From a virus, in the IMG/VR virus record IMGVR_UViG_3300047323_000134, positions 1-25,500 of that record: DNA of 25,500 bases. One strand, 5' to 3'. Under the pieces are notes generated by a model, which saw nothing but the letters and a program-made list of their open reading frames with translations, searched no databases and was not told the DNA's origin. Positions 3,485 to 8,671 of the stretch are shown here, piece by piece; the stretch's first letter is position 1, and every line of letters begins with the position of its first letter. The position numbers were made by a program, and so were the translations under genes.

Positions 3485-6145
3485 TTAAACATGGGGTTCG
3501 TCGTACAGCTTCGCTGCGTTCTGCTTCGCCGCGCCTTCCATCATTCGCTGCATGTGCGGCATCAGGTCCTGGGCCAGGCGCTGCGGGTCTTTGACATCCC
3601 CCTGCACTGTGACTGGCATGTTCAGCGAATACTGGAACTGCTGATCCACCTTGGCCGGTACCGGCTTCTCCGGCTCCTTGGGCTGAATGGCCAGCGCCGC
3701 CGACTTGAGCGGCGCCGTCACCGCCATCGAGCGCGCGACATCCCCCAGCACCGGGCCTTGCTGCGCCGCTGCCGCCATCATGAGCGGTGTGGTCGGCACC
3801 GCAGCCTTTGGCTTTTCCTCGGGCTTTTCATCCTCGCCACCAAACAGCGATTTACCCAGGGAACCGCCCAGCGCCGCGCCGCCCTGACTGCCGAGGTACG
3901 CACCGATCAAGCCGCCAATGGCCGTGCCGATGATCGGCACCACCGAACCGATGGCTGCCCCTGCCGCTGCACCGGCCATGGTGCCCGCCAGATTGCCAGC
4001 GGCCGCGCCGTAGCCCTCGGCTTTTTTATCCTTGGTCTTGGCGTTTGCAAAAGTCTCATAGGCCATGGCCCCGGACTCCAGCAGCGTACCGCCGGGAATC
4101 ATCTTGCCGACTTTGCCAACCTTGCCGACGGCCTGCACGACCCCACCCAACTTGGCCATCGCACCGGCTGGCACTGGTGGCACCGGAGGAATCGGCGGCC
4201 GTGGCACTGGAACGGGCGGGCGCGACACCGGCGGACGCGACGACCCGGGGCGGGGTAACGGCCGACGCCGCGAGGCATTGCGCCGTGACCCGCGTCCACG
4301 TCGGCGGGCTTCTCCCGGGGCATCTGCGCCGCCGCCACCGCCGCCCATGGCGTTGGCGTTGACGACGAAAACCTTCTTGACCGCGTCGTCACCGCTGCCC
4401 GCCTCGCCCTCTCCGCTACCCGAGGCTGCTTCTTTGGCCAGCGAAACGGCTTTAAGACCGGTCGCGACCAGGTCGAATTTTCCGGGTTTCTTGTCATCGC
4501 CATCCACCGGCGTTCCCTTGAACGCTGCGCCGGCCTTGCCACCCCCCATGGATCCGCGCGCCAGGTTGAACAGGCCTTTGCCGATCTTGAACGAGCTTAA
4601 AAGACCCTTGAGGGCAATCAACCCGCCGCCGACCGCGACGATGCCCCCCACCACCCCGGGGGCGCTGTCAGACAGCGAGGTGATGCCCTTGGTGACCTTG
4701 GTCAGCGTCTCGGCGACGGTGTCCGTCACCGGGCGCAGCGCATCCCCCACACTGCGCATGGCGTCATCCATCGACTGGGCCATCTCGGCCCACTTCTGCG
4801 ACGACGACTCGCGCCGTTCGCTGAGGTTTTTATCGAGGATCCCGGTCGCATCGCGCGAATCGTTTTTCAGTTGAGCGTACAGCGCCTTGTTCTGCATGAA
4901 GGCCGACAGCGCGGCCTTGACCTGCATATCAGCGAACAGGTCGCCCGTGCGCAGGGATTTCTCCAGCGAGTCCATCATGGCCTTGGCTTTTTCAGGATCG
5001 GCCTGCTCGCTGATTTTTGCCGTCGCCTCGGCCATGGCCGCCGCGCGTTTCGGATCGGTGGCCTGAATGTATTTCTGAGCCAGCGCCATACTGGTTTCAA
5101 GCGTCGACATACCGTTTTGCAAGCCGGTCTGCATCGATCCCTTGTAGTCAATGCCGGCTTTTTCATAGGCCTTGACCGTGTCGGTCGAGCCGATTTTACC
5201 CATCCAGTTTTTCAGGTTGTTGGCTGCTTCGTCCGAACTGCCGGCCTGCTTCATCTGCACCTGCAGCATGGCGCCTAATTGGGTCACCGCGTCCATGCCG
5301 GTGATGCCAATGCTGCCCATGTTGGCCAGCAGCTCGGGGAACCACTTGGCCATGTCGGCCGCTTCAAAACTGCCCGCCTGGCCTTGGTAGGCGATGGCCT
5401 CAAGCGCCTGCTGCATCTGTTTCGGGTCGGTGATCTTGGCGTTTTGCCCCAGGGCGTTGATCATCTTCGCGGTGTCGACACCGCTTGACCCCTGCCCCAC
5501 GACAAACTTGGCCGCGACCGGCGCGTACTCCAGCGCCTTACTCAGTTCCATGCCGGCGCCGACCAACTGGTTGACCACGTCGGCCACGTCGTTGCGCGCC
5601 ATACCGGTGTCGCGCGAAGTGTCGATGATCTTGCGCGACATCTCCTGCTCTTGTGGCTTGTTGGCAATGCCGGCCTTGATCGCGATGTCCCGCACAATGG
5701 CGCCGAAATCCGCGCTGACCTTGGTTGGCACCGCCAGCGCACCGACACCCACCACCGCCGCACCGACTGCGCTCTTCATGCCGGACTTGCCGGCATCAAG
5801 TTGCTGATGTCCTTTGGCTTTCAGTTCGGCTTTGTTGGCCGTCTGCCCCATGGAGCGATAGGCTTTTTCCAGCCTGCCAACTTCGATCCCCTGCTTTTTC
5901 AAGCTGTCGAGGTTCGAGTTCAGACGGCTGAGCAACTTCGACGCCCCGGCAGCGCCGCTGTCGTGGGCCTTCTTCCATTCTTCGCGCAGGCGAATGGTGT
6001 CGCCAATCGTGCGTTGCAGCACGCGCGCTTTGTTGCCTTCCGCCTCGAGGCGCTTGATGCGCCCGGTCACATCCTTGAACGCGGCGCCGACCGTCGAACT
6101 GACGGCCCCGCCGATCACCAGCCCGAGGGCGAGTTTGTTTGCCAT
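3485..6145 (-). CDS. T: Tail tape measure protein T
   Basis: An 886-aa protein, start ATG 6145 behind GGGGGCC. The N-terminal third is helical (R-I-K-R-L-E-A-E-G-N-K-A-R; L-L-S-R-L-N-S-N-L-D-S-L), typical of the TP901/P2 tape-measure family. The region at residues about 140-330 has the conserved phage-tail-measure core with D-I-A-I-K-A-G, Q-L-V-G-A-G-M and W-F-P-E-L-L-A-N. It sets tail length and is threaded inside the tube; at roughly 0.15 nm per residue a tail of about 130 nm is implied. Residues about 597-660 are an unusual Gly6 plus Arg/Pro-rich linker, followed by a Gly/Ala-rich hydrophobic stretch (about 720-765) that could act as a membrane-active segment at injection. It follows the E/E' chaperone, as in P2. 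Confidence 0.93.
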   Translation of the reverse strand: MANKLALGLVIGGAVSSTVGAAFKDVTGRIKRLEAEGNKARVLQRTIGDTIRLREEWKKAHDSGAAGASKLLSRLNSNLDSLKKQGIEVGRLEKAYRSMGQTANKAELKAKGHQQLDAGKSGMKSAVGAAVVGVGALAVPTKVSADFGAIVRDIAIKAGIANKPQEQEMSRKIIDTSRDTGMARNDVADVVNQLVGAGMELSKALEYAPVAAKFVVGQGSSGVDTAKMINALGQNAKITDPKQMQQALEAIAYQGQAGSFEAADMAKWFPELLANMGSIGITGMDAVTQLGAMLQVQMKQAGSSDEAANNLKNWMGKIGSTDTVKAYEKAGIDYKGSMQTGLQNGMSTLETSMALAQKYIQATDPKRAAAMAEATAKISEQADPEKAKAMMDSLEKSLRTGDLFADMQVKAALSAFMQNKALYAQLKNDSRDATGILDKNLSERRESSSQKWAEMAQSMDDAMRSVGDALRPVTDTVAETLTKVTKGITSLSDSAPGVVGGIVAVGGGLIALKGLLSSFKIGKGLFNLARGSMGGGKAGAAFKGTPVDGDDKKPGKFDLVATGLKAVSLAKEAASGSGEGEAGSGDDAVKKVFVVNANAMGGGGGGADAPGEARRRGRGSRRNASRRRPLPRPGSSRPPVSRPPVPVPRPPIPPVPPVPAGAMAKLGGVVQAVGKVGKVGKMIPGGTLLESGAMAYETFANAKTKDKKAEGYGAAAGNLAGTMAGAAAGAAIGSVVPIIGTAIGGLIGAYLGSQGGAALGGSLGKSLFGGEDEKPEEKPKAAVPTTPLMMAAAAQQGPVLGDVARSMAVTAPLKSAALAIQPKEPEKPVPAKVDQQFQYSLNMPVTVQGDVKDPQRLAQDLMPHMQRMMEGAAKQNAAKLYDEPHV

Positions 6146-6183
6146 GTCACGGCCCCCATGTGCCCAGCACTACCGATGGCGGC

Positions 6184-6301
6184 TCAATCCGTGAGCCACC
6201 ACACCATGTCCGCGAATGGCATCGACTGGATCTCGGCAGCGGAAAACCCGGTTTCCGCCGCCAGACGTTTCGCGGCCATCTTGATCACGTTGGGATCAAA
6301 G
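6184..6301 (-). CDS. E': E'-like C-terminal extension of the tail chaperone (reached by frameshift)
   Basis: Reading from the CUU UGA at the end of E, a +1 shift opens 37 further codons (D-P-N-V-I-K-M-A-A-K-R-L-A, ending M-P-F-A-D-M-V-W-W-L-T-D) to the stop at 6184. In P2-like phages E is extended by a ribosomal frameshift into E', giving the E+E' chaperone that coats the tape measure. The Trp-Trp rich, acidic end and the position directly before the tape-measure gene fit E'. Independent initiation is unlikely: the in-frame GTG 6288 and ATG 6279 have no Shine-Dalgarno element. Unlike the P2 case (-1), the frame relation here is +1 (or -2). Confidence 0.65.
6296..6301 (-). other. Candidate programmed +1 frameshift site CUU UGA
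   Basis: E terminates GGG-CUU-UGA at 6304-6296. Slippage of the CUU-decoding tRNA by +1 onto UUU would continue GAU-CCC-AAC in the E' frame. CUU UGA is the codon pair used for RF2 (prfB) autoregulatory +1 frameshifting. The RF2 internal AGGGGG element is not present; only GGG directly precedes CUU. Confidence 0.55.
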
Positions 6302-6895
6302 CCCGTTGTCGTTGTCCATGCGAAAATAGCCGGCCTGCAAGCGGTTGAAATCCACCAGCTTGAGGCCCTCCAGATCAGCCACCGGTGCACCGGCCAACCC
6401 GGCAAACAACACCAGTTCGCGCTGTTCGTCGTCACCGCCGGCGTCACGATTGGCCGCCCGTACATCGCGCACGGTAGGCGAACGCAGGGCCAGCTTATCG
6501 ACCGTCACACCGTTGATTTCGCTGGGGCACGACAACGTCACCAGCACCTGATCAGTGGTGAGCGACAACCACGACGGCGTCGACGTCGAGTAATCGGTGG
6601 AGGGCACCAGGTGCGAATAGGCCGCCTGCACCCGGCGGTAATCCGTCAGCTTGAGGCCCTCCAGATCCTTCAGGCCAACCTCGGCCAAGCCCGCGAACAG
6701 CATCAGCTCGCGCTGTTCGTCGTCGCCATTGGCGGCGCGGTCGGCCGACCGCACCTCACGCACAGTTGGAGCACGCAGGGTCAACGTGTCGACGTCGATG
6801 CTGTTGGCTTGACTTGGGCGGGAGAGGGTCACGACAGCACTGAGCGCACTGATCGACAACCAGGCCGGCAGGTTTTTAGCAGTTGCTTGAGTCAT
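6296..6895 (-). CDS. E: Tail assembly chaperone E, internally duplicated
   Basis: A 199-aa protein starting ATG 6895 after AAGGGA, positioned exactly where P2 has E, between the tube and tape-measure genes. It consists of two copies of one domain: residues 10-97 and 107-194 align without gaps with a 97-residue period and about 50 identical positions of 88 by eye. Shared blocks include P-x-W-L-S, L-R-x-P-T-V-R-x-V-R, G-D-D-E-Q-R-E-L-x-L-F-A-G-L-A and D-L-E-G-L-K-L. Tail chaperones bind tape measure during tube assembly; two linked copies would make a built-in dimer. The C-terminus is the candidate frameshift site to E'. The single-domain family size is about 90-110 aa, so this is an approximately doubled member. 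Confidence 0.85.
   Translation of the reverse strand: MTQATAKNLPAWLSISALSAVVTLSRPSQANSIDVDTLTLRAPTVREVRSADRAANGDDEQRELMLFAGLAEVGLKDLEGLKLTDYRRVQAAYSHLVPSTDYSTSTPSWLSLTTDQVLVTLSCPSEINGVTVDKLALRSPTVRDVRAANRDAGGDDEQRELVLFAGLAGAPVADLEGLKLVDFNRLQAGYFRMDNDNGL
6314..6868 (-). repeat. Tandem duplication inside gene E (291-bp period)
   Basis: The two halves of E are still similar at DNA level; for example the 20-mer AGCTTGAGGCCCTCCAGATC (plus strand) occurs starting at 6357 and at 6648, exactly 291 bp apart, and CTCGCGCTGTTCGTCGTC is likewise repeated at the same distance. Confidence 0.9.
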
Positions 6896-6908: not shown

Positions 6909-7412
6909 TTACAGGCCGAGCGCATTGCGCACTTCGAGGAGTTGGTCTTTGCCGTCGATCACCTGAATGCCGGCGACCATGTCGATCTCGTACATCAGGC
7001 GGCCGTCGATTTCGAGCTTGTAGTACGTGACCGCAATCGCGTGTTTGATCTCGGCCGGATCCCCCGCCTTCCAGTCGCCCAGGTCGATTTCTTTGAGCCG
7101 ACCGCGCAGGGTGGCCACTACCGCTGTCACCGCGCCCTTGTGCCCCTTGAAGGCGCCACGGAACGTTGCGTTGAACGCCGTACCATCGGCCAGACCGAAA
7201 TATTTCAGCGACTCACGGCGCACGCCCTTGGTGACAAAGGACGCCTCCATTTTTTCCAGCCCCTGATCCATCTCGATGGGGCCGGCCATGCCGCCCCCGC
7301 GATACTCATCGGTCTTGGTGGTCAGTTTGGGCAGCGTCAGGCTCGGCACGTCGCCGGAGAAGTTCACGCCGTCGACGAACAGATTGGTGTTAAACAAAGT
7401 CTGAGGAATCAT
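6909..7412 (-). CDS. FII: Major tail tube protein FII
   Basis: A 167-aa protein starting ATG 7412 behind AAGGGGG. The P2 FII family signature is plain: M-I-P-Q-T-L-F-N-T-N-L-F-V-D-G near the N-terminus, L-P-K-L-T-T-K-T-D-E-Y-R-G-G-G-M-A-G-P at about residues 27-45, and a C-terminal Y-Y-K-L-E-I-D-G and E-I-D-M-V-A-G-I-Q-V-I-D-G-K-D. It polymerises into the inner tube that the sheath surrounds. It follows the sheath gene by 13 bases and shares its transcript; sheath plus tube define the tail as contractile. Confidence 0.93.
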   Translation of the reverse strand: MIPQTLFNTNLFVDGVNFSGDVPSLTLPKLTTKTDEYRGGGMAGPIEMDQGLEKMEASFVTKGVRRESLKYFGLADGTAFNATFRGAFKGHKGAVTAVVATLRGRLKEIDLGDWKAGDPAEIKHAIAVTYYKLEIDGRLMYEIDMVAGIQVIDGKDQLLEVRNALGL

Positions 7413-7425
7413 TTGCTACGCCCCC

Positions 7426-8592
7426 TTAGGCTGCTTCAAGCACTTCGGTCATCCATTGATCGGTGACTTCGAAAAGGAAATTCGGGTTTTCCGCCGGCGG
7501 CACGTCGGTGAAACGAATGCGCCAATACACCTTGCCTTGGGCGATCTGGCTGGCCGTGTTCAGCTCGGTGTCGGGGTACACTTCGAAATTGATGATTGCG
7601 CCCTGGGCCTTCAGATCGCCCATGAACGCATCCAGACCATTGGTCACATCAGTGACGTAGGTCTTGGTGATCGAGCGGTCGACCGCCCACTTGTGCCCGG
7701 CCTGCACCGCGTCCATGAGGATGAACAACGTGCGAACGCGGGTAACGAATGCCCACTTCGGATCGCTGGACAGCGTGCGGTTGCCCCACAGGCGGTAGCC
7801 GTCATCGCGAATGATCGTGGTGATATTGGCGTTGTTGAGCAGGTTGGCCCGGCAAGTCTCGTCGCCGTCCAGATACTCGACCGCGCGCCCCGTGCCGGTA
7901 ATGCCGGTCAATTCCTTGTTCGACGGCGATGCCCAGAAGCCATATTCGGCATCCGTCCACGCGAACAGGCCCGCCGCCCAGGCCGAGCCAGGCGCGTCGA
8001 CCGTCTTGCTGGTGACGGTGTCCCAATACTTGACGCCCGGGTCGACCATGAACAGGTTGCGGCTACCGAAGTTATCGGCGTAGGCCATGGCGGCCTCGTC
8101 GGTCGTGCCTGGGCCGTCGATGATGCCAATGGCGCGCAGCTTCTGCGCCAGGCTATCGAGCGCGGTCGCCACCGCCTGAGTGGCCGTGTGGCCCGGCGCA
8201 ATCAACAGCCGCGGCTGGGCGTTAAACAGGCTTTTGCCGTCGAGCAGCGCCTGCAAGCCGGTACGCTGGCCAGAGGCCAGGACGCCGCCAATGATCGCCG
8301 AGGTTTGCAGCGCAGCATCTTCCAGCTTGGGCACGCCGATGGCGACGATCACCGCCTTGGCTTTGACGTAGATCGCCTGACAGGCCTTGGTGATCGCCGA
8401 GTCGGTGCCAAAGGCGGCAATGGCTTCGCGCTCAGTAGTGATCAACTTCAGCTCGCCGGCCTTGGCTGTGCCGCCGCCGAGAACGCCTGGGGCGAAGGTG
8501 TCGCACAGGCCGATAATCGACGACGACGGCAACGTGATGGTGCGCGCGCCGGTATCGACCGATGTGGTCGTGACGCCGTGGAAAAAACTCAT
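7426..8592 (-). CDS. FI: Tail sheath protein FI
   Basis: A 388-aa protein, start chosen at ATG 8592 (M-S-F-F-H-G-V-T-T) because TCTGGAGA lies at 9 bases. Longer in-frame starts (8661, 8601) either include the hairpin region or overlap that site. The sheath family is recognised by the N-terminal F-H-G-V-T-x-x-x-V-D-x-G-A-R-T-I, the central N-L-F-M-V-D-P-G-V-K-Y-W-D-T and the C-terminal R-T-L-S-S-D-P-K-W-A-F-V-T-R-V-R-T-L plus I-N-F-E-V-Y-P-D. It contracts to drive the tube through the cell envelope. It is expected to be one of the most abundant late proteins, and its leader shares a 17-bp sequence with the capsid leader. Confidence 0.95.
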   Translation of the reverse strand: MSFFHGVTTTSVDTGARTITLPSSSIIGLCDTFAPGVLGGGTAKAGELKLITTEREAIAAFGTDSAITKACQAIYVKAKAVIVAIGVPKLEDAALQTSAIIGGVLASGQRTGLQALLDGKSLFNAQPRLLIAPGHTATQAVATALDSLAQKLRAIGIIDGPGTTDEAAMAYADNFGSRNLFMVDPGVKYWDTVTSKTVDAPGSAWAAGLFAWTDAEYGFWASPSNKELTGITGTGRAVEYLDGDETCRANLLNNANITTIIRDDGYRLWGNRTLSSDPKWAFVTRVRTLFILMDAVQAGHKWAVDRSITKTYVTDVTNGLDAFMGDLKAQGAIINFEVYPDTELNTASQIAQGKVYWRIRFTDVPPAENPNFLFEVTDQWMTEVLEAA

Positions 8593-8601
8593 AAGGCTCA
8601 T

Positions 8602-8637
8602 TCTCCAGAAACGAAAAAACCCCGCATAAGCGAGGCT
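8602..8637 (-). terminator. Hairpin/T-run leader of the sheath gene
   Basis: Minus strand AGCCTCGC, loop TTAT, GCGGGGTT (8 pairs including two G-U) then a T-run, followed by a CG-TTT-CTGGAGA Shine-Dalgarno segment. Bases 8602-8618 are identical over 17 bases to 16227-16243 in the capsid leader. Confidence 0.7.
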
Positions 8638-8671
8638 GTTAGGGATGTTCGTGTGACGCATAACGGAAAAG

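Follow-up and report, generated by a model that had tools for sequence, protein, structure and literature searches.

In phage P2 the tail proteins E and E+E' result from an established −1 frameshift at TTTTTTG (PMC3091744). Forward shifts at stop codons are represented by prfB, whose cassette consists of CTTTGA followed by C, with AGGGGG three bases upstream (PMC12421855), and according to the PRFect study every CUU-stop forward site in RECODE belongs to prfB (PMC10885494). Among phages, the tsh gene of the Listeria phages PSA, A118 and A500 carries a +1 frameshift at CCC_UGA, and a +1 shift is suspected in the tail chaperone of the haloarchaeal virus HSTV-2 (PMC5009743); forward-shift tail chaperones also occur among the SEA-PHAGES actinophage annotations (PMC10885494). 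Tail chaperones with a forward shift are thus not in themselves a novelty. A series of sites in which a codon NTT directly precedes the stop codon (NTT-stop), including in Pseudomonas P2-like tails, was not found described in the open-access literature.

Here we analysed a window of 25,500 nucleotides from an IMG/VR virus record, for which a first-pass annotation had noted that the tail chaperone gene E ends with GGG-CUU-UGA and that 37 further codons, up to WWLTD, are open in the +1 frame ahead of the tape-measure gene. This is correct at positions 6895-6296. The features of the region are:

7426..8661, minus strand: tail sheath gene (FI-like); PF04984, phrog_23
6909..7412, minus strand: tail tube gene (FII-like), upstream of E; PF04985, E 1.6e-59
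6296..6895, minus strand: gene E, tail assembly chaperone, 199 aa, with two tandem Phage_TAC_7 domains; PF10109, E 2.5e-39, in two stretches; phrog_166 tail protein
6296..6301, minus strand: predicted +1 frameshift site CTT-TGA (CTT 6301-6299, stop TGA 6298-6296, slip target TTT 6300-6298)
6184..6297, minus strand: E', +1-frame extension of 37 codons (DPNVIKMAAKRLAAETGFSAAEIQSMPFADMVWWLTD) plus stop (stop codon 6186-6184)
3485..6145, minus strand: tape-measure protein gene (T-like), 886 aa, downstream of E'; phrog_794, E 3e-195; PF10145

On the minus strand, the last codons of gene E are AAC GGG CTT TGA. The +1 frame runs from GAT at 6297 through 37 codons with WWLTD as the last residues, and the tape-measure gene starts at 6145, 38 nt beyond the E' stop. 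The PF10109 chaperone sits between tail tube and tape measure, as a P2-type E/E' demands. Gene finders miss E' here, which on its own has no match in Pfam or PHROGs; a search of solved structures by sequence found none, and an Rfam search returned a single weak match below threshold.

The phage itself is a mosaic, with a lambda-family portal and large terminase combined with a P2-like contractile tail (1324-21485). Its tube gene is 71–73% identical to that of phage PS17 and of record OQ658366. For this gene (6909-7412) the PHROG 55 label is 'head closure', whereas Pfam assigns it to the tail tube FII; the PHROG label looks wrong and has been copied into the record of Klebsiella phage KA2-1. 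Gene E (6296-6895) is a tandem duplication, with its two Phage_TAC_7 domains 58% identical and spaced by 291 nt in one open reading frame. Among the 244 relatives described below, the motif searched for is present in two copies in at least 82 and in one copy in about 152. A perfect inverted repeat, GGCTCA-CGGAT-TGAGCC (6181-6197), spans the E' stop codon; many relatives share it, and a few, such as L239 and L262, have it disrupted.

Relatives were drawn from IMG/VR, from species genomes, in which all hits were to Pseudomonas, and from genomes of the same bacterial family; removal of identical junctions left 244 distinct homologous junctions. All of them have an E' of exactly 37 codons in the +1 frame, and the E stop falls exactly 8 codons past the YF motif of E. 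An NTT-stop is found in 243 of the 244 junctions (CTT 152, GTT 77, ATT 11, TTT 3), the sole exception being L320, which reads GTG-TAA and sits on the longest branch. The stop codon is TGA in 132, TAA in 103 and TAG in 9. CTT-TGA proper, as in the window, is present in only 89, so that the alignment of related prophages proposed in the first-pass annotation bears out the frame relation and not the conservation of CUU UGA. The preceding codon also varies (GGG 131, GAG 68, GAA 32, GAC 10, three others), and the GGG before CTT pointed out earlier is not required. Directly 3' of the stop, 191 junctions have C, 52 have T and one has A; as had been noted correctly, the window has T instead of C at this position and no AGGGGG. 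In one relative, the prophage copy L121 of P. neuropathica P155, an early interruption breaks the E reading frame.

Chance expectation was taken from 400 kb of a Pseudomonas fluorescens chromosome comprising 275 genes. NTT-stop gene ends occur in 15 of these genes and CTT-TGA ends in 2, indicating that a CTT-TGA end at one locus alone is weak evidence. Even the combination of NTT-stop with 37 open +1 codons is seen in 6 of the 275, which leaves some room for the idea that this is an ordinary gene end in GC-rich DNA that happens to be followed by a long open +1 frame, or an assembly error. However, frame and length agree across 244 distinct junctions from many assemblies, and 243 homologous junctions with an NTT-stop and a 37-codon +1 E' are far beyond chance; we regard the probability of this explanation as negligible.

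To see which positions are held constant, we used a tree of 242 junction regions, built with the junction columns left out. The first base of the last E codon changed at least 23 times on this tree, the codon before it at least 15 times and the stop codon at least 14 times. In contrast, the three T columns (−2, −1 and 0) show 0, 1 and 0 changes. Columns −2 and −1 are the informative ones, since all stop codons begin with T and column 0 is fixed anyway. A third base that is locked while the first is free inverts what codon evolution ordinarily produces, and the final T of NTT runs counter to host codon usage, NTT making up 16% of NTN codons in the P. fluorescens sample. This pattern matches what selection for a UUU slip target would leave behind. 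In E', codon positions 1, 2 and 3 of the +1 frame changed on average 7.2, 5.7 and 18.3 times, a substitution pattern that is the mark of a coding frame. The corresponding values for E in its own frame are 6.1, 2.9 and 16.1, and E is under frame-0 constraint right to its end. A further invariant position lies within E: the phenylalanine codon −9 (6323-6325) is TTT in all 191 of 191 junctions, with no third-position change on the tree, whereas another conserved phenylalanine of E is encoded by TTT in 120 and TTC in 96 cases. This TTT is possibly a relic of a −1 site.

The conserved junction is very probably a site of programmed +1 slippage, at which the peptidyl-tRNA would shift from NUU to UUU at the stop codon and yield a minor E+E' fusion. 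Most ribosomes would terminate at the E stop and produce E, the tape-measure chaperone. A minority would stall there, with NUU, the last codon, still occupied by the peptidyl-tRNA and the stop codon waiting in the A site; the tRNA would then move one base forward onto a UUU formed by two codon bases and the leading U of the stop. Translation would resume in the +1 frame for 37 codons to give E+E'. Judged by lambda gpG/gpGT and P2 E/E+E', binding of the tape-measure protein would fall to E and recruitment of tube subunits to E', and it is because of these split roles that the E/E+E' ratio should matter. That ribosomes slip here in vivo, how efficiently they do so and what this does for assembly are inferences from the comparative evidence, which supports a +1 frameshift well. 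Once slipped, tRNAs on GUU and AUU would keep only two of their three base pairs. In tests of prfB, CUU_U is reported to have far surpassed all other sites in efficiency (PMC5009743), and GUU and AUU sites may therefore be weak. The gpG:gpGT ratio of lambda is about 30:1 (PMC5009743), and if the ratio matters here as it does there, even a weak site, GUU-stop or AUU-stop for example, could be enough.

Stimulatory elements of the known kinds were looked for on both sides of the site. Upstream Shine-Dalgarno pairing amounts to −3.0 kcal/mol in the window, compared to −10.7 kcal/mol for a prfB-type element and a background mean of −3.9 kcal/mol; it is at background level and is ruled out as a stimulator. 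Downstream RNA structure is ruled out likewise, as RNAalifold gave 0 kcal/mol for the region from the stop to +115 in 33 representatives. The host prfB reads CGGGGGTATCTTTGAC; it was found by family search and does not match the exact AGGGGG pattern. Two other recoding routes were ruled out by inspection: transcriptional slippage, since the T run is just three in most sequences, and a −2 slip as in Mu, since there are no repeated bases for re-pairing two bases back.

In ten named phages with a homologous E (Mica, Mano, FoX1, ep3, PT1, Persinger, KA2-1, Arya, PPpW-3 and AcaML1), E' lies in the −1 frame, and their −1 sites are A-AAT-TTT, G-GGT-TTT or TTC, or longer T runs. The +1 and −1 E' tails are homologous (hhalign probability 96.7, E 3.8e-10, 36 of 37 columns aligned), as would be expected if a single fusion product is made by two routes. 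Thus, one chaperone family apparently gains the same extension by opposite shifts, and the spread of −1 sites suggests that the +1 state is derived. Among the −1-phage records examined, the frameshift product is annotated only in Mica and Mano; the records of ep3, PT1, Persinger, KA2-1, Arya, PPpW-3 and AcaML1 (L267, L269-L274) leave the −1-frame E' unannotated between E and the tape-measure gene.

A third state is seen in 19 distinct Pseudomonas junctions (L082:1780-1930 and loci within L299-L322), which lack an NTT-stop; here E continues in frame 0, and E' again occupies the +1 frame. In 18 of the 19 an ATG is present at the same place in the E' frame, and this conserved ATG suggests that E' has its own start in this group. 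The group includes the 18-kb P. aeruginosa record OQ658366 and may represent R-pyocin-like tailocins with E' translated from its own start.

These 19 junctions, like the deviating L320, count against slippage at NTT-stop, and the ATG shared by 18 of the 19 favours a reading in which E' of the main clade, too, would be a separate small protein, made by coupled restart after the E stop, with no fusion. Many sequences of the clade indeed have GTG or ATG at E' codons 3, 4 or 6. There is, however, no common start position: a conserved E' start codon was not found among the 244 junctions, and 131 of them have no ATG, GTG or TTG in E' codons 0–9. Restart would also leave unexplained why TT is kept before the stop while the first base of the last E codon varies, and we consider it very unlikely. 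Alternatively, the ribosome could shift further upstream, by +1 or −2, with TTT kept only as a phenylalanine codon of the fusion. In each of the 191 junctions examined, no stop codon interrupts the +1 frame over at least 56 nt ahead of the E stop, so that stop codons alone do not fix the shift site. Yet apart from the NTT-stop site no nearby codon re-pairs one base on in all sequences, codon −2 being GGG, GAG, GAA, GAC, TGG, AGC or CGG and codon −3 nearly always GAC. Together with the frame-0 constraint up to the end of E and the stop directly after NTT in all junctions except L320, this makes an upstream shift most unlikely.

The first-pass annotation took the site to be RF2-like, with an E:E+E' ratio that could respond to the level of release factor 2 through CUU-UGA, as in prfB. 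Part of this holds: E' is in all probability added by a +1 shift at the E stop, and the site is chemically prfB-like in that the slip would be onto UUU before a stop. CUU-UGA as such is not the rule; NUU plus any stop is. The window and 88 other junctions do carry CTT-TGA, the prfB core, and C follows the stop in 191, again as in prfB. UAA is read by both RF1 and RF2, and UAG by RF1 only. Sites with TAA or TAG, found in 103 and 9 junctions, thus cannot rest on RF2 alone, and with all three stop codons in use and repeatedly exchanged on the tree no special RF2 dependence is expected. Moreover, the Shine-Dalgarno element is missing and the window itself has T following TGA. The many relatives without CUU UGA speak against the RF2-specific claim; E' in unrelated frames, which would have spoken against the frameshift, does not occur within the clade. 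A ratio tuned by RF2 is therefore very unlikely, and the proposed link to RF2 is not supported.

Taken together, programmed +1 slippage at NUU-stop would make this clade a stop-codon +1 site outside prfB whose rule can be read from evolution: U is required at codon bases 2 and 3 and at the start of the stop codon, with freedom at the first codon base, in the choice of stop and in the flanks. We lean slightly towards a broader reading, in which a minimal +1 site consisting of NUU and any stop codon serves several hundred tail genes of phages and prophages, with evolutionarily free first-position pairing and no need for a cis stimulator. This site would have arisen by a switch of direction in a chaperone gene with −1 relatives, and as the same extension is made by opposite shifts within one family, selection would keep the fusion product and not a given mechanism. 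The natural variants are a ready-made series on how P-site pairing and stop identity set +1 efficiency.

Compared to described systems, the locus resembles tsh of Listeria phages PSA, A118 and A500 in that a phage structural gene has its +1 site, here a predicted one, at the last codon before the stop, but that gene encodes the major tail protein and uses the proline codon CCC, a different gene and codon class. HSTV-2 and the SEA-PHAGES cases likewise place a suspected +1 shift in a tail chaperone, in unrelated hosts and with no NTT-stop shown there. With prfB it shares the predicted slip from CUU to UUU with a stop in the A site, and the window has the CTT-T slip site before its stop, while the clade as a whole has NTT-stop. 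Unlike prfB, the first codon base is free (C, G, A or T), TGA, TAA and TAG all serve as stops, including TAG, which RF2 does not read, pairing at the place of AGGGGG, 3 nt upstream of the slip site, is at background level, C after the stop is common in relatives and absent from the window, and the product is a tail chaperone instead of RF2. In gene order and product the locus is P2-like: a PF10109-family E between tail tube and tape measure, probably frameshifted near its 3' end into an E' in another frame that is homologous to known E' tails. P2, compared here from the literature, makes its −1 shift on a T run ahead of the stop, whereas the clade has no −1 shift on a slippery heptamer or T run and would shift +1 at NTT-stop. 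Mica, FoX1 and the other −1 phages share both a homologous E and a homologous E' with the window, and differ in that their E' is in the −1 frame.
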